From Pseudoalteromonas rubra (GTDB lineage Bacteria > Pseudomonadota > Gammaproteobacteria > Enterobacterales > Alteromonadaceae), in the NCBI RefSeq assembly GCF_005886805.2, contig NZ_CP045429.1, forward strand, positions 186,001-250,000: DNA of 64,000 bases. The letters run 5' to 3'. How positions within the stretch are numbered: position 1 is the stretch's first letter; the number at the start of each line of letters is the position of its first letter. The notes beneath the pieces are model-generated. The model was not told where the DNA came from. It ran no database searches and was given only the letters and a program-made list of their open reading frames with translations. A program made the position numbers and the translations under genes. Below are positions 1 through 35,474 of the stretch, in pieces.

Positions 1-2352
1 TACTATTATGTAAGTCGTCAGTTTGAGCGGTTTGATAGTGAGGGTAACACAACCTCTTTGTATCATAGTCTGCTGATCTATCACTATACTCCTGAAATAG
101 TACAAACAGAGTTTTTGCCAAGTAACCTCGATGATATTCACGATATGTGGGCAAAAGACGAGGATTTGGGTTGGTACAAAGTCATGTTTGGACCTATGTT
201 TTGGAGCATAGAACATCCAGACAGTGTTAAAAACCAGTTGATTATCAATGGCGTTGTGCATCAGTACGAATTAGAAGATGGTAAGTTAGCGTTCATGCTC
301 GACGAGCAACCGCATTATGTGGAGCTCCTGAATTATGATGTTAGGGGTATGCAGATCTGTCTTTATGCTGCCAGCCAGGGGTGTCAGGAGTCTGATAAGC
401 AACAGTGGTATTACGATTTTGATGGTTACGAGATCACGACTCAGACAATAGGGCAGGGCAATTTTTATCCCGCCTATCAGGAAATCCCTAAAGGACACTC
501 TGCGCATGTCTATGTTGAGTCCGAGGCAGGTTATATGCTGCAGAGCATCACTGGCTGTGGTGGTGAGCTATCCGAGCCGAATTATTACATTCCAGCACGT
601 GATACGGATTGTGAAATTACCGCCACTTTTGTTGAAAAGGCCAATCTGGCAGAGCTGGCCGGTATCACGGATCCCCGCCTTGCTGAGTGCGTAAACCAGA
701 TGCCGGTGCAGTCTCCTCAGGCAATTACCTCACTTTCTTGCACACCGAGTGAATCAATCCAGTCACTGAACGGATTGAATAATTTGACTGGGTTACAAGA
801 GCTGACACTTGGTCCTGTGGCCGTCAGCGAATTCGATTTGTCTGGTTTGAGTCAACTGACATCCCTCAGCATTGAGGGGAGCGAACACGGTATTTCTGCC
901 TTGACTGTGTCTGATCCTGAACAGCTACTGGCGCTGAAATTGCAAGGTCTCGGACTCAATGATGAGACGCTGGCATCGTTAGGTTTGGCACGTTTCACCG
1001 CACTGCATCAACTGGATTTATCCGGCAATGCGCTAAGCACGTTCGACGCACAAAGCTGGCCCAATTTGACAACCCTGATATTGTCAGACAACCGGCTCGA
1101 AGGACTTAACCTTGAGCACAACCTTCAGTTACATTACCTGAATGTCAGCATGAATTCGCTGAGTGCGCTGAGTATTGAGAACAATCTGCAGCTGCGTTAT
1201 TTGGACGCCAGTTGGAACGCATTAGCGCAGTTGGACATGACTGAGAATACCGCACTGTACGGTGTGGAGCTTTCTGGAAATCACTTAACACAAGTGTTGA
1301 CAGGTGAGCACCCTATGCTGACCAGGTTCATTGCCGGACAGAATAGACTTACAGCAGTGCAGCTGGATGGAATGCCAGGATTAAATGAGCTAGAGCTACA
1401 TTATAATAATCTGACACAGCTGGATGTTGCTCATAATCCTAACTTGGAGATGCTCTACATTAGCGCCACACAACTCGACCAGTTGGACCTGTCCGCTAAC
1501 CGTAAGTTGCTATTACTTTACGTTGACAGCATGCCGTTTCTGGCCGAGTTGGATTTGAGTCAGAATTCGCAGCTGACAAACCTGGACATTAGCAACAATG
1601 GTCACTTACAGTCTCTTACACTGGCTGATGGATTGCAGCTTGAATATCTGAATGTGGGTTATAGCCCACTGCTGGTGAGTCAGTTGGGGCAGTTCAATGG
1701 CAGCCAGCTATCTAATTTGGATATCAGTGGAGTTGATGCTCGTTGGGTGGACCTGGCGCAGTATCCGAATCTGATATCATTAGTCTGGCAGCGGGCCGCA
1801 CTGGAGCAGATTGATTTGTCCAGCCTGACCAGACTCCAAAATCTGGCCGTCGGTCATAATCCGCTAACGCAAATTGATTTGAGCCATAACATTGAATTGG
1901 ATAGCCTGTCTTTTTCCTACACGTCCATTACCGAATTAGATTTGCAGTATAACCCGCGCCTGCAATATGTCTATACACAGGCCAACGCACTGCATTCAGT
2001 AACCGGGATTGAGGCGATAGAGAATAAAGATGTACAGCTGGATCTTGGCTTAAACCCGCTCAGTAATGATACCGTTTCTTACCTGTTACAGTTGGAAAAC
2101 GATGGGTACTATAACCTGACTTACAGTCAATCTTCTCTGGCTGAGATTACTATCACAGGGCAGGGCAGTGTCAGTGAGTCTGCTGTAGAGCTTGAAAACA
2201 ATCAGTCTCTGGAACTTATCTTACAGCCAGATGCCGGTCATCAGGTTGGTCGTGTCACAGGTTGTCCGGGCGAGTTACTGGGCACGGTATACCGACTCGG
2301 TCCACTGCAAGGCTACTGTGTGTTGCAGGTGGAGTTCGTGCCGCTACCATAA
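1..2352 (+). CDS. Leucine-rich-repeat protein, 5' end outside window
   Basis: The reading frame is open from base 1, so the TTG at 58 is not the real start and the N-terminus, with any signal peptide, lies upstream. The visible part (about 783 residues) has an unassigned N-terminal section, a divergent InlB-B-like beta domain (G-x-G ... GY ... V-x-G-C pattern), some twenty leucine-rich repeats of about 21 residues (L-x-x-L-D-L-S-x-N type), and a second copy of the beta domain at the C-terminus. The two beta domains therefore bracket the LRR solenoid. Proteins of this build are usually secreted or surface-exposed and bind other proteins, but no specific ligand can be named. A perfect-stem terminator follows. 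Repeat recognition is firm; function is inferred. Confidence 0.8.
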   Translation, partial: YYYVSRQFERFDSEGNTTSLYHSLLIYHYTPEIVQTEFLPSNLDDIHDMWAKDEDLGWYKVMFGPMFWSIEHPDSVKNQLIINGVVHQYELEDGKLAFMLDEQPHYVELLNYDVRGMQICLYAASQGCQESDKQQWYYDFDGYEITTQTIGQGNFYPAYQEIPKGHSAHVYVESEAGYMLQSITGCGGELSEPNYYIPARDTDCEITATFVEKANLAELAGITDPRLAECVNQMPVQSPQAITSLSCTPSESIQSLNGLNNLTGLQELTLGPVAVSEFDLSGLSQLTSLSIEGSEHGISALTVSDPEQLLALKLQGLGLNDETLASLGLARFTALHQLDLSGNALSTFDAQSWPNLTTLILSDNRLEGLNLEHNLQLHYLNVSMNSLSALSIENNLQLRYLDASWNALAQLDMTENTALYGVELSGNHLTQVLTGEHPMLTRFIAGQNRLTAVQLDGMPGLNELELHYNNLTQLDVAHNPNLEMLYISATQLDQLDLSANRKLLLLYVDSMPFLAELDLSQNSQLTNLDISNNGHLQSLTLADGLQLEYLNVGYSPLLVSQLGQFNGSQLSNLDISGVDARWVDLAQYPNLISLVWQRAALEQIDLSSLTRLQNLAVGHNPLTQIDLSHNIELDSLSFSYTSITELDLQYNPRLQYVYTQANALHSVTGIEAIENKDVQLDLGLNPLSNDTVSYLLQLENDGYYNLTYSQSSLAEITITGQGSVSESAVELENNQSLELILQPDAGHQVGRVTGCPGELLGTVYRLGPLQGYCVLQVEFVPLP

Positions 2353-2408
2353 CTCTGTACTCACCCAGCGTTTTGCAATGTAACCAAGATTGCCACAACG
2401 CTGACGCT

Positions 2409-2445
2409 AAAACAGGACTTTGCATGCAAAGTCCTGTTTTTGTAT
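2409..2445 (+). terminator. Rho-independent terminator after the LRR gene
   Basis: A perfect 16-bp inverted repeat (arms 2409-2424 and 2425-2440) whose right arm runs into T-rich sequence. It lies 57 bases past the LRR stop codon. The A-rich left flank could also let it work on the other strand, but no minus-strand gene ends here. Confidence 0.8.
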
Positions 2446-2609
2446 GCAGTAAACACTGAACTTGCAACTTGTGTATTTTTGATTTAAAAAATTGCAAAAA
2501 ACAGGCTAATTATTCTTTTAAACCGACTAAATAAACAGATTCAAAATCACAATTCCCCTTTAAATGGATTAAGATCTCCGCCAAATTGTCATCCCTAGGC
2601 GAGAGCAAA

Positions 2610-3242
2610 ATGACCGCAGTAAACAACCAGAATTTGCTACAACTTCGTTTTATTCAACAAACGCACATCGATGCGGTTAAACCTTCGTTTAACCGTCTGC
2701 CAGATAACCCTTATGCGGATGGTGCATTCCGTAAACGTCGTTATTCCGTATTGAAATTTGCCAATGGCGAAGTGGCTCTGCAGCCGACTAAAGCCTTTGT
2801 GCAGGACGACTCAATCAACACCTTTCAGGGCAACATTGAGCGTGTTTATGAAAATCTGGAAGCAGACCTGATCCACAGCGAAGGTTTCAAGCACCTGCTG
2901 AATGAATTTAAAGTAATGACAGGTATCAGCGATGAGCGTGACATCGAAGTCCATCAGTTCCGCATGCTGGCCATTGAGAGTGATACACCGCCAGCACCAG
3001 AAGGCGTGCATCAGGATGGTTTTGATCATGTGTGCGTATGTGGTGTGTCGCATGAGAACATCGCGGGTGGTGAGCTGCTGGTATACGAGCACAAAGACGC
3101 TGAGCCATGCTTTAAGATGGAGATCAAAGATGGTCTGTTTGCTCTGGTCAATGACCGTGAGGTTTGGCACAACGCGACGCCAATGAACAAGCTAGATGCC
3201 ACGCAAACGGGGTATCTGGACTGTTTTGTATTTACCGCGTAA
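2610..3242 (+). CDS. 2OG-Fe dioxygenase family protein (possible free amino-acid hydroxylase)
   Basis: A 210-residue protein resembling the 2OG-Fe dioxygenase family that includes the Bacillus L-isoleucine 4-hydroxylase. The iron facial triad is visible as H-x-D (V-H-Q-D-G, residues 134 and 136) and a distal His in E-V-W-H-N (about 187). The family hydroxylates free aliphatic L-amino acids using 2-oxoglutarate, O2 and Fe(II); the substrate here is unknown. The ATG at 2610 is preferred over an in-frame TTG at 2586 because the extra eight residues are not typical and the ATG has a GGCGAG-like ribosome binding site. Only 9 bases separate it from the PLP-enzyme gene, so the two are probably co-transcribed. 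Confidence 0.8.
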   Translation: MTAVNNQNLLQLRFIQQTHIDAVKPSFNRLPDNPYADGAFRKRRYSVLKFANGEVALQPTKAFVQDDSINTFQGNIERVYENLEADLIHSEGFKHLLNEFKVMTGISDERDIEVHQFRMLAIESDTPPAPEGVHQDGFDHVCVCGVSHENIAGGELLVYEHKDAEPCFKMEIKDGLFALVNDREVWHNATPMNKLDATQTGYLDCFVFTA

Positions 3243-5101: not shown

Positions 5102-5278
5102 TTAGCAGCCTGGATCATACGGAGAGGTTGGGCAAGTTAGTCCTTGATAGGTCATACATCCCTTGTTATAGGGTGAGCTGGCATACATACCACCTGCAGC
5201 TTGTGGTGTTAGCTCCTGAGCTAATGGCGTTTTGTTGTTCAAGCGTTTGAGCGATTTTTTCTGTAAGCTGATTTTCAT
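5102..5278 (-). CDS. Small GG-leader, Cys-containing peptide precursor (family member 1)
   Basis: A 58-residue ORF. It begins M-K-I-S-L-Q-K-K and its Lys/Leu-rich leader ends L-T-P-Q-A-A-G-G at residue 30. The remaining 28 residues hold three Cys (41, 49, 58), five Pro or Tyr-Pro-type turns, and end in G-C. An AAGGA ribosome binding site sits 6 bases before the ATG, and a terminator follows directly. The same leader pattern (MK-hydrophobic-x-L-x-KK-x-x-K-x-L ... T-P-x-x-A-G-G) recurs in the 31787-31981 gene with an unrelated C-terminal part. By analogy with double-Gly leader peptides it is probably cleaved after GG and exported or modified; no processing gene is adjacent. It lies 108 bases after ntrC, with no clear promoter recognised. 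Coding status rests on the ribosome binding site, the paralogue and the terminator. Confidence 0.75.
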   Translation of the reverse strand: MKISLQKKSLKRLNNKTPLAQELTPQAAGGMYASSPYNKGCMTYQGLTCPTSPYDPGC

Positions 5279-7958: not shown

Positions 7959-8471
7959 TCAACGGTTGAGCACGCTGGCGCGGTGCAGAAAAAAGGTGGT
8001 TACTGCACTTTGGGCAACCAGCTTGCCTTTGTCATTAAATACTTTCATTTGCAATTTGTGTTCCCCTCTGGGCACATCGCGTAACGCAAAAGATGCTGTG
8101 GTTTGTTTGGGCCCGGTCGCTTTGCCATCAAGAAACAGCTGAACCTGAAAACCATTTGCAAAGCGCGGTGTCACTAGGCCATTCACATACACGCTACCGC
8201 TGTTTTCACGTAGCGTTTGCTGATCGCTTGGGGCTGTAATTTTTGCCTGATAAGAAACGGTGGGCGTGGACTGTGTGGGTGTTAAAATACTGGTGTCAGT
8301 CGCTGGCATGGTGAGCATATTGGTGCTCAATTTGACCTTCTCAGAGCCTTTTTTTGGCACATCCGAATAGACCCAGTTACCATTTTCGTCTTTCCAGCGG
8401 TAGACTTTTTGATCTGACACAGCACTTGCGCTGTACACCAAACAGAGAATCACCCAATAAAGCCGCAACAC
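7959..8471 (-). CDS. DUF4124 domain-containing exported protein
   Basis: About 170 residues. A hydrophobic signal-type N-terminus (L-Y-W-V-I-L-C-L-V-Y-S-A-S-A) precedes a DUF4124 motif (V-Y-R-W-K-D-E-N-G-N-W-V-Y-S-D-V-P), then a Thr/Pro linker and a beta-rich C-terminal domain of fibronectin-like character. The start is uncertain: GTG at 8471 has AAGGTG five bases upstream, while ATG at 8495 would give 178 residues with a charged extension. Proteins of this kind often lie between glnA and ntrB in related genera, but their role in nitrogen metabolism is unknown. Likely periplasmic. Confidence 0.8.
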   Translation of the reverse strand: MLRLYWVILCLVYSASAVSDQKVYRWKDENGNWVYSDVPKKGSEKVKLSTNMLTMPATDTSILTPTQSTPTVSYQAKITAPSDQQTLRENSGSVYVNGLVTPRFANGFQVQLFLDGKATGPKQTTASFALRDVPRGEHKLQMKVFNDKGKLVAQSAVTTFFLHRASVLNR

Positions 8472-8552
8472 GATTTCACCTTGCTTAAAAGACACACATT
8501 ACCAGCTATAACTTTAGTGCTTTTAGCGCAAGTTTACCATTGCACCGGCATG

Positions 8553-8574
8553 AAAAAAGCCCGCATTGCGGGCT
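8553..8574 (-). terminator. Terminator downstream of glnA
   Basis: On the minus strand an AGCCCGC/GCGGGCT stem is followed by TTTTTT. It lies about 150 bases beyond the glnA stop and just before the DUF4124 gene, so it should separate the two transcripts at least partly. A further imperfect inverted repeat without a T tract lies nearer to glnA (about 8682-8708). Confidence 0.75.
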
Positions 8575-28775: not shown

Positions 28776-29063
<288 letters not shown>

Positions 29064-29075
29064 TCGGAGGGTATG

Positions 29076-29408
29076 ATGGAAGCATTAGCTAAACACAAAT
29101 TCGCCTCTGGTTCGGCGCAAAAAGCACGTCTAGTTGCAGATCAGATCCGCGGACTTCCGGTTGATCGCGCGCTAGAAATCCTAGCGTACAGCCCAAAGAA
29201 AGCGGCTGTATTAGTTAAGAAAGTACTTGAGTCTGCTATCGCTAACGCGGAGCACAACGAAGGTGCTGACATTGATGAGCTTAAAGTGGCTAAAGTATTT
29301 GTAGACGAAGGTCCTACAATGAAACGTATTATGCCACGTGCTAAAGGACGCGCAGACCGCATCCTTAAGCGTTCAAGCCACATCACTGTTGTGGTTTCAG
29401 ATAGCTAG
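29076..29408 (+). CDS. rplV: 50S ribosomal protein L22 (uL22)
   Basis: A 110-residue protein, same length as in E. coli. Its long beta hairpin ([11 protein letters not shown]) narrows the exit tunnel and is a site of macrolide resistance changes; it looks wild type. Two ATGs stand in tandem; the second (29076) fits the GGAGG spacing and the family start (M-E-A-L-A-K). Confidence 0.97.
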
Positions 29409-29420
29409 GAGATATAAGTA

Positions 29421-30122
29421 ATGGGACAAAAAGTTCATCCTACTGGTATTCGCCTAGGTATCTCTAAACCTTGGGTTTCTACCTGGTACGCGAATTCAAA
29501 AGATTTCTCTGAGCAGCTTTTTGGTGATCACAAAGTGCGTCAATACCTTACTAAGGAATTGAAAAACGCTTCTGTGTCTAAAATCGTTATTGAGCGTCCA
29601 GCTAAATCTATCCGTGTAACAATTCACACAGCTCGTCCTGGTGTTGTTATCGGTAAAAAAGGTGAAGATGTTGAAAAGCTTCGCCACGCTGTAACTAAGC
29701 TTGCTGGTGTACCTGCGCAAATCAACATCGCAGAAGTACGTAAGCCAGAGCTTGATGCACAACTAGTTGCTGACGGTATCTCTTCACAGCTAGAGCGTCG
29801 TGTAATGTTCCGTCGTGCGATGAAGCGCGCGGTACAGAACGCAATGCGTCTGGGTGCAAAGGGTATCAAAGTTGAAGTTAGCGGCCGTCTAGGCGGTGCT
29901 GAAATCGCACGTTCTGAGTGGTATCGTGAAGGTCGTGTACCTCTACACACTCTACGTGCTGACATCGACTACGCAACTTCTGAAGCTTTGACCACTTACG
30001 GTATCATCGGTGTTAAAGTTTGGATCTTCAAAGGCGAAGTTATCGGTGGTCTTCCACTGAAACAAGAAGCTGAGAAGCCAGCCAAGCGCGCTCCGAAGAA
30101 AGCTAAAAAAAGTGCTAAGTAA
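29421..30122 (+). CDS. rpsC: 30S ribosomal protein S3 (uS3)
   Basis: A 233-residue protein with an N-terminal KH domain (V-V-I-G-K-K-G-E-D) and a C-terminal domain, part of the mRNA entry channel and its helicase activity. The basic tail ([12 protein letters not shown]) is typical. Confidence 0.98.
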
Positions 30123-30135
30123 GAGGTAGCGACTA

Positions 30136-30549
30136 ATGTTACAGCCAAAACGTACAAAATTCCGTAAAGTGCACAAAGGCCGCAACCGTGGTCTTGCAAC
30201 TAGCGGTAATAAAGTTAGCTTCGGTTCTTTCGGCTTGAAAGCGACTGGCCGTGGCCGTATGACTGCTCGTCAAATCGAAGCAGCTCGTCGTGCTATGACA
30301 CGTCACATCAAGCGTCAAGGTAAAATCTGGATCCGTGTGTTCCCAGACAAGCCAATTACAGAAAAGCCGCTTGAAGTTCGTATGGGTAAAGGTAAAGGTT
30401 CTGTTGAATACTGGGTTGCTGAAATTCAGCCTGGTAAAGTACTTTACGAGATGGAAGGTGTTTCAGAAGAGCTTGCTCGCGAAGCATTCAACCTAGCTGC
30501 TCGTAAATTACCTTTCAAAACCACTTTTGTAACTCGGACGGTAATGTAA
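30136..30549 (+). CDS. rplP: 50S ribosomal protein L16 (uL16)
   Basis: A 137-residue protein that binds near the A-site and completes the peptidyl-transferase centre. The start [10 protein letters not shown] matches E. coli, and the Arg in the G-R-M-T-A-R loop region is present. Its stop abuts the rpmC ATG at 30550. Confidence 0.97.
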
Positions 30550-30741
30550 ATGAAAGCTAGCGAACTTAAAGACAAAAGCGTAGAAGAGCTAAATGCTGAA
30601 CTTCTAGAGCTTCTGCGTGAGCAGTTCAACCTGCGCATGCAAGCGAGCACTGGTCAGCTGGCTCAGACTCACGAGCTGAAAAAAGTACGTCGCAATATTG
30701 CGCGTGTTAAAACGGTTATCAACCAGAAGGCAGGTGCATAA
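30550..30741 (+). CDS. rpmC: 50S ribosomal protein L29 (uL29)
   Basis: A 63-residue helical-hairpin protein near the tunnel exit (M-K-A-S-E-L-K-D-K; later R-R-N-I-A-R-V-K-T). It starts directly after rplP and shares one base with rpsQ, the tightest packing in the operon. Confidence 0.97.
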
Positions 30742-30998
30742 TGAGCGATAAGATCCGTACTCTTCAAGGTCGTGTAGTTAGCGACAAAATGGACAAGTCA
30801 ATCGTTGTTGCTATCGAGCGTCAGGTTAAGCACCCGATCTACGGTAAATTCATCAAGCGTACAACTAAGTTGCACGCACACGATGAGAGCAACACTGCGC
30901 AAGCAGGTGATACTGTGACTATCCGTGAATGTGCACCGATCTCTAAGAAAAAATCTTGGACTTTGGTAGACGTTCTGGTTCGTCCTAAGAAAGCTTAA
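30741..30998 (+). CDS. rpsQ: 30S ribosomal protein S17 (uS17)
   Basis: An 85-residue OB-fold protein, a primary 16S rRNA binder ([15 protein letters not shown]). It is full length. It is the last gene of the run: rplN and the rest of the spc operon, which usually follow, are absent. Instead the last 28 or so codons and the terminator are repeated downstream (31097-31564). Confidence 0.97.
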
Positions 30999-31022
30999 TT
31001 TTTATTAATTAAGTTTGTCTTG

Positions 31023-31051
31023 AAAGCCCCGGCCTTTTGGTCGGGGCTTTT
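31023..31051 (+). terminator. Terminator of the S10 operon (first of three)
   Basis: A stem of about nine bp (GCCCCGGCC with GGTCGGGGC, loop TTTT) followed by T-rich sequence. It begins 25 bases after the rpsQ stop. Identical copies lie 189 and 378 bases downstream. Confidence 0.88.
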
Positions 31052-31211
31052 GCGTTTGGGGCGGTCAGGTTATTTTGGGGGTCGTCTGAATAGAATGACT
31101 ATCCGTGAATGTGCGTCACCACCAAAACCTCCTAAGAAAACATCCTGGACTTTGGTAGACGTTCTGGTTCGTCCTAAGAAAGCTTAATTTTTATTAATTA
31201 AGTTTGTCTTG

Positions 31212-31240
31212 AAAGCCCCGGCCTTTTGGTCGGGGCTTTT
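31212..31240 (+). terminator. Second copy of the S10 operon terminator
   Basis: Identical stem, loop and T tract to 31023-31051, carried by the first downstream repeat unit. Confidence 0.85.
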
Positions 31241-31400
31241 GCGTTTGGGGCGGTCAGGTTATTTTGGGGGTCGTCTGAATAGAATGACTATCCGTGAATG
31301 TGCGTCACCACCAAAACCTCCTAAGAAAACATCCTGGACTTTGGTAGACGTTCTGGTTCGTCCTAAGAAAGCTTAATTTTTATTAATTAAGTTTGTCTTG

Positions 31401-31429
31401 AAAGCCCCGGCCTTTTGGTCGGGGCTTTT
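31401..31429 (+). terminator. Third copy of the S10 operon terminator
   Basis: Identical to the first two and carried by the second full repeat unit. The next unit (31475 onward) has lost this structure. Confidence 0.85.
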
Positions 31430-31720
31430 GCGTTTGGGGCGGTCAGGTTATTTTGGGGGTCGTCTGAATAGAATGACTATCCGTGAATGTGCGTCACCAC
31501 CAAAACCTCTTAAGAAAAAATCCTGGACTTTGGTAGACGTTCTGGTTCGTCCTAAGAAAGCTTAATTTTAGCTTTTAACTAAATTGAACTTTTGCGTTTG
31601 GGAATGGCTAGTTAGGGTAATGTGCTAGTGCACAGTGACTATCCGTGAATGTGCGCCATTCCTGGGGGTATTCTTACAGAGGTACTGCAGCGATGCGTGT
31701 TACGTTGCTAAATCAAGGTA

Positions 31721-31749
31721 TTGAGGTTGGTCGTTTTTTGAACTATGCT
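31721..31749 (+). promoter_or_regulatory. Putative promoter of the 31787-31981 peptide gene
   Basis: TTGAGG, a 17-base spacer and TATGCT. A start near 31756 leaves a leader of about 30 bases to the ATG. The site is just past the last fragment of the repeat array. Pattern match only. Confidence 0.45.
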
Positions 31750-31786
31750 CGGTGGTGCAATTCACTTTGTTATTAAGGAAAATCCA

Positions 31787-31981
31787 ATGAAATTGAAACT
31801 CAAGAAAAAGCCGATGAAGGCGTTATCGCCAAGCACAACCACAATGCCTGTTGATATGACCCCAAAAGTTGCGGGTGGCTCACTGCTCGCTTGTTTACCA
31901 GTTGGCACGCGCGGTTGTCGAACCAATAACTCCTGTGATCACTTCTGTTTTATTTCCGATCCTGAGGTTCATGGTTGTTAA
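31787..31981 (+). CDS. Small GG-leader, Cys-rich peptide precursor (family member 2)
   Basis: A 64-residue protein. The leader (M-K-L-K-L-K-K-K-P-M-K-A-L to M-T-P-K-V-A-G-G at 31) matches family member 1 at 5102-5278. The 33-residue remainder has five Cys (36, 44, 50, 54, 64), is otherwise unlike member 1, and also ends in G-C. AAGGA lies seven bases before the ATG at 31787; an in-frame ATG at 31745 has no ribosome binding site. A terminator follows directly. It is likely cut after GG and exported, possibly with disulfide or thioether cross-links; no maturation gene is adjacent. The neighbour hemN is a normal haem gene on the other strand. Compared with known RiPP families I recognise only the general leader style. 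Confidence 0.8.
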   Translation: MKLKLKKKPMKALSPSTTTMPVDMTPKVAGGSLLACLPVGTRGCRTNNSCDHFCFISDPEVHGC

Positions 31982-31983
31982 TT

Positions 31984-32028
31984 GAAGCACCACTAAACGG
32001 GCTGTACGTATGAGGTGCTTCCCTTTTT
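31984..32028 (+). terminator. Terminator of the second peptide gene
   Basis: An 8-bp stem (GAAGCACC at 31984-31991 with GGTGCTTC at 32014-32021), a 22-base loop, then CC and five T. It starts two bases after the stop codon. Confidence 0.7.
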
Positions 32029-32036
32029 GTAAGTCC

Positions 32037-33407
32037 TTAAATCACCCGTGAAAAGCGGGTGTTTTTGATCTGTTGTTGCAGATAGGCATCAAAGCACATG
32101 CAGATGATGCGGATAAACAGGTTCCCCTTAGCTGTGACTTCAATACGTTGCTCGGTGAGCTCCACCAGGCCATCTTCAGCCAGAGGTTTAAGTGCCGTTA
32201 GCGCATCGGCAAAGTAGTCGTCAAAGTTGAGGCCATGCTCTGCGGCAAAGGTAGTTTTGTCGAGCTCGAAGTGGCAAATAAGCTGCTTGATCGCGGCGGC
32301 TCGAATTTCATCATCTCTGGTGAGCTTAACGCCTTTATGAATAGCGCTACGGCGCTCAGTGACGGCCTGGTAGTAGGGCTTCAGGTCTTTTTCATTTTGT
32401 AAAATGGCATTACCGATCTGTGAAATAGACGACACGCCGAGGCCGAGCAAGTCGCAGTTACCATGGGTGGTATAGCCCTGGAAGTTTCGGTGCAGATGAT
32501 TATGTCGCTGTGCCACAGCCAGCTCGTCATCGGTTTTGGCAAAATGGTCCATACCGATAAACTGGTAACCGGCATCGCTCATCTGTGTCAGTGTTTGCTT
32601 AAAGATCGCGAGCTTTTCTTTGGCGTTGGGCATATCGGCCTCTTTCAGCTTGCGCTGGGCGGCGAATCTTTCCGGCAGATGGGCATAGTTAAACACCGAA
32701 ACCCGATCAGGGCCCAACTCAATGAGCTGCGCTATGGTATCGCGATAGGACTCAACGCTCTGATGAGGCAGGCCGTAAATCATGTCCATATTAATGGATT
32801 TAAAGCCCAGCTCGCGGGCTTGTTTTAAGAGCGACAGCACTTCTGCAATCTGTTGCGGGCGATTTACTGCTGCCTGTACCTGATCATTAAAATCCTGCAC
32901 CCCGAATGACACCCGATTAAAGCCGAGCGTTTTCAGTGCTGGCAGCATGTCTTCGGCCAGTGATCTGGGGTCGATTTCAATGCCGCGCTGGGCAGTTGGT
33001 GTGAAGGTGAAGTGCTGCTCCAGCATGGTGACCAGGCGGGTCATTTGCGCTGTGGTCAGAAAGGTGGGGGTGCCGCCTCCGAGGTGCAATTGCTCAACCT
33101 GATAAGCTTTAAACAGCGGTGCCTGAGCGGCTATCTCCAATTCCAGATGGTCGAGGTATACGTCGGCCTTGGACTGATGTCGGGTAATAATCTTATTACA
33201 GCCACAGTAATAGCAAAGCTGGTGACAGAATGGGATATGAATATACAGCGACAGTGCACGGGTGTCGGAGTGTGCGATGGCATCAACCAGATCGGCCTGA
33301 GTATAACCTGATTCAAGTGACAGGGCTGTTGGATAAGAGGTATATCTGGGGCCTGAGATATTGTATTTGTTGATGAGGGAGTCATCCCACTGAGGTAAAT
33401 TAATCAC
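32037..33407 (-). CDS. hemN: Oxygen-independent coproporphyrinogen III dehydrogenase
   Basis: A 456-residue radical SAM enzyme (E. coli 457) that turns coproporphyrinogen III into protoporphyrinogen IX without O2. The 4Fe-4S motif C61-x3-C65-x2-C68 is followed by C70, as in true HemN. The H-L-G-G-G-T-P-T-F segment for SAM binding is intact. Length and motifs indicate the haem enzyme and not a HemW-like or peptide-modifying relative. Convergent with the small peptide gene. Confidence 0.95.
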   Translation of the reverse strand: MINLPQWDDSLINKYNISGPRYTSYPTALSLESGYTQADLVDAIAHSDTRALSLYIHIPFCHQLCYYCGCNKIITRHQSKADVYLDHLELEIAAQAPLFKAYQVEQLHLGGGTPTFLTTAQMTRLVTMLEQHFTFTPTAQRGIEIDPRSLAEDMLPALKTLGFNRVSFGVQDFNDQVQAAVNRPQQIAEVLSLLKQARELGFKSINMDMIYGLPHQSVESYRDTIAQLIELGPDRVSVFNYAHLPERFAAQRKLKEADMPNAKEKLAIFKQTLTQMSDAGYQFIGMDHFAKTDDELAVAQRHNHLHRNFQGYTTHGNCDLLGLGVSSISQIGNAILQNEKDLKPYYQAVTERRSAIHKGVKLTRDDEIRAAAIKQLICHFELDKTTFAAEHGLNFDDYFADALTALKPLAEDGLVELTEQRIEVTAKGNLFIRIICMCFDAYLQQQIKNTRFSRVI

Positions 33408-33524
33408 GATCGCACTCTCTTTGCTATTGAGAAGGCTAGTGTAAGCAAAGTTGTGCTTTGAGGCGTTGATCTAAAGCAAAAGGAAGGGCAGGTGATGACG
33501 CTCACTGCCCCATCTTGTAGGGCC

Positions 33525-35474
33525 CTACAGCCTAAATTGGTCCACCAGGGTGTTCAGTTCACGGGCAATGTGGCTCAATGCTTTGGCGTCCTGGGATACT
33601 TGTTGTGCCCCTTGCGCTGTTTCCGCGGCACTCTCACTGACATGGGTGACACTTTCAGATATTTGCATTGAGACCGTATTCTGCTCTTCTGATGCGCTGG
33701 CAATTTGTAAATTCATTTCGCGAATGGTGCTGATTGAGCCGCAAATTGCTTGTAACGTTGCGCCGGCGTGTTCGGTTTGCTCCGCGGAGTTTTCCGCATG
33801 GTCAACATTGCGCTGCATATGCTCTACTGAGCGTTTGGCCTCGTTTTGTAAGCGCGAGATCATCGCCTGGATCTCTTCGGTACTTTGCTGCGTACGACTG
33901 GCCAGGCTGCGTACTTCATCGGCCACTACGGCAAAGCCCCGGCCTTGCTCGCCAGCCCGCGCGGCTTCGATCGCCGCGTTGAGTGCCAGCAGATTGGTTT
34001 GGTCTGCAATACTGCGGATCACATCCAAAATGGAGCCGACCGACTCCGTCTCGTTTTCTAACTGGGTAATGGCCTCACTGACTTGTTGAATACTGCCCAC
34101 CAGTTCACTCATGGCTTCACGAGACGTTTGTACCACCTGGATCCCGGTCTGGGATTGCTGATCAGCTTCGGTAGCCGCGTCGGCAGCCAGTTGCGCGCTC
34201 TGCGTGATCTCATGTACGGTCGCACTCATTTGTTGCATCGCTGTGGCACTTTGGGTCAGTTGATCTTGCTGTTGATCGGTTTCACTTTTGGTTTTCTCAG
34301 TGATTGAAATCATTGCTCCGGTTGTGTCATTTAATGTGGTGGTAGCAGATTTGATTTTACTCACTATGTCTCGCAGTGTGGTTGTCATTTCGGACATCGC
34401 CCGATATATGCCTGTGGTATTCGTGGTCGCAAATTGGTAACTGAGATCGCCTTTGGCGATGGCTTTGGCCAGTGCTTCGATTTCTCTTGGCTCACCGCCA
34501 ATGGGCTCGCGCAGTAAATTGCTGACATACCAGCTCAAGAACGCGCCCGCGAACACCACCAACACCGATACTGTGGTTACCAGCATCACCGCCTGCTCAC
34601 TGGTGCTTTGCGCTTGAGGGCCAAGCTCGTCCTGGCGGTTTTTAATATCCAGTTTAATATCTTCCAGTGTGTTAGCTACCTGAGGGCCAATGACATTGAG
34701 TTTTTGTGAGATGAGCTGGTTACGCTGCAATATGGTCTGGTTCACGGCTTTGACGGCAGTAATGTAATCGAGTTTGTGCTGTAAGAATTCAACAAGCATG
34801 CCCTGAACCGGTTGCCATGCAAATGCTCCGGCCTGTTCGTCCAGCAGGGCAGCCAGTTGGCTAAACTCCTCAATGGCGCGTTGGTAATCCTTGTCTGTGT
34901 TTGTCACCAGGAATTTGACCACGTATAAACGGCCGAGCAACAACGTTTCCTGCAACCGGGCCGCTGCGAACAAGGCTTCATTATTGTTTTGTTGATGTGC
35001 ATTGTTGATCACATCGCTGAGTATGGTGCGCATTTGTACGCCTTTGACATCCAGCTGGTTGGTTACGATGTCATTGCGTTTAGCGTATAACTGGACAATT
35101 TGCTCGAATGCCCGCCGATATTCTTCAATGTCGCTCGCACTATTATTGAGTTGGGTCTGGTAACTGGTATCCGAGATACTTGCCTGGGCCTGATCCATGA
35201 GTTCCTTGAGCAAATCAAAACGCTCATTAAATTCATTAATGTTGGTTGTGCTCTGCTCTTTCAGGTATTTGAGTGCATTGAGGCGCACCATCAGTAAATT
35301 CGCCTGCAGACGGCCGCTTAAATTGGCATTGCGTGCCAATGTACGATATTCGACGAAGTTGTTATAACCGGTATTCAGCCCAAGGTAGGCAGAGATAGAA
35401 ATCACCGTCATCAGAGCGATGAGGGCGCCAAATGAGTACGCAAGCATCTGCGCCAGTTTGAGGTTTTTAAACAT
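33525..35474 (-). CDS. Methyl-accepting chemotaxis protein with HBM-like sensor
   Basis: A 649-residue receptor: membrane helix 1 (about 10-30), an all-helical periplasmic part of about 265 residues resembling helical bimodular (HBM) sensors such as McpS or TlpQ, helix 2 (about 298-322), a short HAMP-like linker, and the signalling hairpin. The CheA/CheW-contact tip [21 protein letters not shown] is intact. The ligand is unknown; HBM sensors bind organic acids or polyamines. No C-terminal CheR-binding pentapeptide is seen. Confidence 0.9.

Follow-up and report, generated by a model that had tools for sequence, protein, structure and literature searches.

The precursor gene and its sister gene

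The gene at 31787-31981 of the window (the whole stretch of Pseudoalteromonas rubra DNA analysed, 64,000 nucleotides) raises the question of what kind of peptide it encodes, and which enzymes would process it. The original prediction described a 64-residue reading frame whose Cys are at positions 36, 44, 50, 54, and 64, a double Gly at 30-31, and a good ribosome binding site, and all of these features were found (Table 1). The leader layout of the 5102-5278 gene is also the same, as had been proposed. Downstream of the stop codon, a GAAGCACC...GGTGCTTC stem with a T-run behind it was read from the sequence, and the 8-bp stem was recovered by a script permitting longer loops. The terminator scan did not report this structure (31984-32029), because it does not allow a loop as long as the 22 nt present here. 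No sigma-70 consensus promoter was found for this gene by the promoter scan.

Table 1. Positions of the precursor genes and associated elements in the window.
Feature	Position	Strand	Description
Precursor gene	31787..31981	+	64 aa; proposed class I lanthipeptide precursor; leader profile 45.3 bits
Ribosome binding site AAGGAA	31775..31780	+	Read from the sequence; 6 nt before the ATG
Leader, residues 1-31	31787..31879	+	Ends in the double-Gly motif TPKVAGG; based on leader alignments
Core, 33 aa	31880..31978	+	Five Cys and five Ser/Thr; 3/33 residues differ in the related genome G007
Putative terminator	31984..32029	+	8-bp stem, 22-nt loop, T-run; after the stop codon
Sister precursor gene	5102..5278	-	58 aa; three Cys and six Ser/Thr in the core; leader profile 46.3 bits

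The gene at 31787-31981 was confirmed as real. When the window was searched with the leader profile, the two precursor genes scored 46.3 and 45.3 bits, and no third match reached 10 bits. The top score in 5.95 Mb of simulated DNA with the dinucleotide make-up of the window was 11.2 bits; thus, the leader family is not due to chance. Neither window peptide matches any NCBIfam model or, up to an E-value of 10, any Pfam family. The Rfam search over 29000-34000 gave no match.

A dispersed family with conserved leaders and variable cores

Single-sequence searches of the P. rubra genome (two contigs, 5.94 Mb) identified eight loci. The leader alignment of these loci gave 35 matches at E<=10 in the same genome, with 30 at E<0.01; the search across the genus gave 30 for this genome at E<=1e-4. 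The dispersed family that had been predicted therefore exists: about 30 genes are distributed across both contigs, and the family occurs in 51 of 108 genomes of the genus. A plausible ATG start was found in 29 of the 30 loci; the remaining one (L037) and five weaker matches were excluded from the alignment, composition, and placement analyses. L037 (around 1501-1690 of its locus, G000:C1:3231065) is a leader-family remnant about 340 bp from the intact member L026, and is a possible pseudogene.

Alignment of the 29 members showed that the leaders share the consensus MKLxLxKKxLKxLS...TPxVAGG, with a mean pairwise identity of 48%. The mean identity of the cores is 26%, versus 24% against shuffled cores; the cores are unrelated to one another. 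The expected combination of a conserved leader and a variable core was thus borne out. The cores are 19-40 residues long and contain 1-6 Cys, which make up 11.8% of the core residues versus 0.2% of the leader residues. An AGGA or GGAG sequence is present within 22 nt of the start in 26 of the 29 members (AAGGAA in 19), and in 16 members the 80 nt after the stop codon include a perfect stem of at least 6 bp with a T-run. The family genes look monocistronic. The motif search upstream of the members detected only AAGGAA and A/T-rich words. Flanking DNA was considered as a vehicle of dispersal and rejected: the flanks of the paralogs in this genome have only short repeats in common, except for one overlapping pair of neighbouring loci.

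The NCBIfam scan and the search for relatives covered 21 of the 29 members. Two members match the leader model lant_leader_L1a (NF038153) at E<=1, with 10.4 and 17.6 of the required 22 bits and a best E-value of 0.0032; one matches lant_leader_L1b (NF038158) with an E-value of 0.013 and 15.6 of 27 bits. These models describe class I lanthipeptide leaders and are the nearest relevant ones. All three scores are below the cut-off, so the members would be missed by standard annotation. The search for relatives yielded 40, and almost every one that carries a source name is annotated as hypothetical or uncharacterized.

Enzyme genes

The double-Gly peptidase that had been sought is present as a single C39 match in the genome, with a LanC gene about 2 kb away. 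Four consecutive genes on the same strand (C1:4543397-4551370) encode a membrane fusion protein, the C39 peptidase/ABC exporter (LanT), LanC, and LanB; gene order and spacing suggest one operon. The LanB and LanC genes lie at G000:C1:4543397-4547774. LanB is full-length (1049 aa), and the glutamylation and elimination domains are both present (PF04738, 448 bits; PF14028, 207 bits), jointly covering most of the protein. It aligns with solved dehydratases including NisB. The NisB-like motifs FFIRYGDP and EVERYGG are conserved, as is HMHNNR in a weak separate alignment piece. LanC matches PF05147 with 130.5 bits. Its WCYG and CHG motifs align with 8byk, and the conserved Cys and Cys-His residues are presumably the zinc ligands.

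Among the enzymes named in the original prediction, LanB and LanC of class I were thus found, but the radical SAM gene beside the 31787-31981 gene is of the HemN type and looks unrelated. The genome contains two LANC-like matches, the stand-alone LanC and a class III LanKC (G000:C2:175143-177710) that scores above the NCBIfam cut-off; no LanM-type synthetase is found among them. The LanKC gene belongs to a class III-type locus (L043, 3145-10755, G000:C2), where it is flanked by genes for an ABC transporter and for a protein of the prolyl oligopeptidase family.

No leader-family match above 15 bits was found in a 20-kb stretch around the four-gene run. Along the contig, about 334 kb separate the run from the closest of the 30 members; on a circular contig, the distance would be about 235 kb. 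The run is accompanied by a GlmU-like gene, a gene of 180 aa, and an AraC-type regulator gene; no recognisable immunity gene was seen beside the enzyme genes, the 180-aa neighbour having no Pfam match.

Co-occurrence of the leader family and LanB

Among the 108 genomes of the genus, the leader family (E<=1e-4) was found in 51 and LanB (E<=1e-20) in the same 51, and 57 genomes have neither (Fisher p ~5e-32, a value that ignores relatedness, since genomes within a genus are not independent). A single LanB was found at this threshold in 49 of the 51 genomes. A second, divergent LanB is encoded at G021:C2:393-3485 (39% identity) and at G076:C38:1394522-1397599 (35%). The number of leader matches per genus genome ranges from 1 to at least 71; high counts are lower bounds, because the best 75 candidates per genus genome and the best 20 per family-level genome were considered. 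At the family level (395 genomes), the leader was found in 31 genomes (8/52 genera) and LanB in 37 (11/52 genera), and all of the 31 are among the 37. Six LanB genomes have no leader match. Five of them have a LanB of 29-38% identity, and one (G146) has only LanB fragments, some with stop codons. One further genome (G201) has a LanB of 38% identity, yet two weak leader matches.

This distribution also bears on whether the precursors might be substrates of the separate class III LanKC. The enzyme is encoded in the same genome with a score above the curated cut-off, and the 10 of 108 genus genomes that contain a LanKC are all within the 51 leader genomes. However, 41 of these 51 have no LanKC, and this explanation is scarcely credible.

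Placement of Ser/Thr around the core Cys

The placement of Ser/Thr was compared with cores in which the Cys positions were fixed and the remaining residues shuffled. In the 29 cores, Ser/Thr occurs 2-10 residues N-terminal to 93 of 95 Cys, versus 78.9 +/- 3.2 expected (0/5000 shuffles); on the C-terminal side of the same Cys, 61 were counted versus 57.2 +/- 3.2. An upstream Ser/Thr of its own could be assigned to every Cys in 28 of the 29 cores, versus 18.5 +/- 2.1 (0/2000 shuffles). Further cores were taken from 209 leader matches of at least 30 bits; removal of own-genome loci and of cores more than 50% identical to those of P. rubra or to each other left 48, some of which (L114, L147) are diverged orthologs of P. 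rubra genes. Seven of the 48 have no Cys, so they cannot form lanthionine, and were left out of the test. In the other 41, Ser/Thr lies N-terminal to 136 of 140 Cys versus 115.2 +/- 4.1 (0/2000 shuffles), and the C-terminal count is 97 versus 91.7 +/- 4.3, which was reached by 261 of 2000 shuffles. The pooled Ser/Thr profile (overall frequency 0.17) gives 0.31 at -3 and 0.27 at -5 from Cys, and is highest at +2 (0.34); thus, the placement is not one-sided at short range. In thioether formation, Dha/Dhb is usually N-terminal to Cys, and the N-terminal excess is therefore what thioethers would require; disulfides need no such excess. As in class I precursors, the leader is followed by a core with Ser/Thr and Cys able to form thioethers.

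The abundant Cys, the leader ending in GG, and the C39 exporter in the genome would also fit unmodified Cys-rich bacteriocins or microcins, whose leader is removed by the exporter and whose Cys form disulfides, while LanB and LanC serve something else. This reading is distinctly unlikely. It is opposed by the Ser/Thr placed N-terminal to nearly every Cys above the shuffled level, by the number of Cys, which is odd in 13 of the 29 cores and even in 16, by the exporter gene lying in one run with LanB and LanC, and by the leader family tracking LanB across the 108 and 395 genomes.

The proposed system

Taken together, the scattered precursors, including the 31787-31981 gene, very probably belong to a class I lanthipeptide system and are processed in trans by one LanB/LanC/LanT set. 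The shared leader would be recognised by one distant LanB and one LanC. These enzymes would dehydrate Ser/Thr of the core and close thioether rings with Cys that lie mostly C-terminal of them. LanT, the only C39 ABC exporter found, and its membrane fusion partner would then cut the leader after GG and export the product; the peptide sequence is consistent with the predicted cleavage after residue 31. Given recognition of the leader by a single LanB/LanC, one enzyme set would convert about 30 unrelated cores in P. rubra, and up to 71 or more in relatives. For the products, a role as secreted effectors or as signals directed at other cells is most likely.

Selection on the cores

Orthologs were paired between P. 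rubra (G000) and the genome of a second species (G007). From the 42 matches in G007, 30 were used; 23 of the 30 own loci were paired, and differences were counted over aligned residues. The dN/dS was 0.10 (0.06-0.15) for the leaders and 0.11 (bootstrap 0.04-0.19) for the cores. Diversifying selection on the cores was considered, and is not seen overall; the cores are under purifying selection between the two species. In 11 of the 23 pairs the cores show no difference over the aligned residues, while the DNA around them differs. One example is L010/L125, where two matching pieces of the locus are 91% and 78% identical. The purifying selection and the identical cores together suggest that most cores are kept for their own sake. 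A few cores (L032, L020, and L031) have diverged much faster.

The low core dN/dS argues against most of the scattered copies being unused remnants or spare copies of a local lanthipeptide gene, as do the AGGA/GGAG-type sites (26/29) and the stems with T-runs (16/29) of the members. Such relics would account for L037 with its lack of a plausible start codon, and for the copy number, which varies strongly among genomes; overall, this explanation is very improbable.

LanB loci in related genomes

Named genomes were searched with LanB, and the loci found include some in P. rubra (91-92% identity), P. luteoviolacea, P. aurantia, P. phenolica, P. flavipulchra (63%), P. piscicida, and Colwellia. None of the five loci most similar to the P. 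rubra enzyme locus (L045-L047, L064, and L070) has a leader match in the stretch examined around LanB. Leader-family precursors are present within or close to the LanB gene run in P. flavipulchra, P. phenolica, and Colwellia: three matches at the P. flavipulchra locus (L068), one and four at two P. phenolica loci, and one and three at two Colwellia loci. One of the P. flavipulchra precursors (~8354-8554, minus strand) lies antisense between lanT and lanC. The gap between these two genes is nearly closed in the P. rubra genome and in L047 (~176 bp). A local precursor may have been lost in the P. rubra group.

Leader-family genes of a different kind also occur at LanB loci. Tandem genes at P. 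luteoviolacea-group loci have Cys-free cores with SDTSVT motifs, and other cores contain NTDTVTQ repeats (L048, L050, L063, and L075, near 2300-3100; L049, near 311; L056, near 428). The P. aurantia locus L055 (1724-2267) has four near-identical tandem copies with NTDTITQ. Cores of these kinds cannot form lanthionine alone.

Relationship to known systems

Studies of class I enzymes usually involve a single adjoining precursor or a small number of them. Among the published systems consulted, the nearest in organisation is that of the prochlorosins, which are of class II (PMC10783134). Like the prochlorosins and synechococsins of the picocyanobacteria (ProcA/ProcM and SyncA/SyncM), the P. rubra system has one synthetase set with many dispersed precursors and diverse cores. 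However, prochlorosins combine Nif11-family precursors with an enzyme of the ProcM group (LanM, class II), whereas the P. rubra enzymes are LanB and LanC, and no Nif11-type leader was recognised in the two window peptides among Pfam matches up to an E-value of 10. The system is probably the class I equivalent of the prochlorosins, present in about half of the examined genomes of Pseudoalteromonas and in some related genera. The cores are unrelated within a genome yet largely frozen between two related species, and no recognisable immunity gene adjoins the enzymes; this would suggest that the secreted ring peptides form a fixed vocabulary, as opposed to a set of antibiotics.

Several lanthipeptides of the genus have been reported. 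The pseudorosins A-C of the Psf system from P. flavipulchra S16 are class I lanthipeptides mentioned in PMC12819058 and cited in PMC10885120. The LanB of P. flavipulchra NCIMB 2033 may be the counterpart of PsfB; it is 63% identical to the P. rubra enzyme over nearly the whole protein, and its 23-kb locus contains three leader-family precursors. The class I lanthipeptide precursor PciA of Pseudoalteromonas citrea DSM 8771 was modified in E. coli and is presented as a gene cluster, unlike the scattered precursors of P. rubra (PMC9993889). The likeness to the NF038153 and NF038158 leader models is limited to weak member matches below the cut-off, and the 31787-31981 peptide has none. A glycosylated lantipeptide pathway is mentioned for all of 13 P. 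luteoviolacea-type strains in passages of another study (PMC5069768), and class III lanthipeptide predictions with no identifiable core gene are mentioned for two Pseudoalteromonas isolates in passages of a further one (PMC10456417).

As stated in passages of a mining study, the search was confined to a distance of seven genes from the LanC-domain protein (PMC7268733); scattered precursor sets would be missed within such bounds. Passages of a review that deals with the promiscuity of lanthipeptide enzymes do not mention Pseudoalteromonas (PMC12328550). No report of scattered class I precursors was found in titles and abstract openings, with subscription papers outside this scope. If the proposed system is correct, many predicted lanthipeptides per genome would be added in a marine genus, and a natural, broadly tolerant LanB/LanC pair would be at hand for peptide engineering. 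The purpose of such a repertoire, as yet open for the prochlorosins too according to passages of the source (PMC10783134), would also become testable.

Neighbourhood of the precursor gene

The 31787-31981 gene has duplicated rpsQ 3' ends, arranged as an array, on one side and a convergent gene of the HemN type on the other. The HemN-type radical SAM gene was considered as a modifying enzyme and judged to be unrelated housekeeping. Synteny was checked at five of the loci matched in related genomes, and the order of rpsQ repeats, peptide gene, and hemN is kept in G007 (peptide 92% identical) and G093 (53%). The interval from rpsQ to the peptide gene showed no additional ribosomal gene. The tandem array (30943-31569) begins within the real rpsQ and contains about 3.3 copies of a 189-bp unit, which includes the 3' end of rpsQ and its terminator. 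Four extra copies of the rpsQ tail are present at the G007 locus, and copies are found in G093 too.
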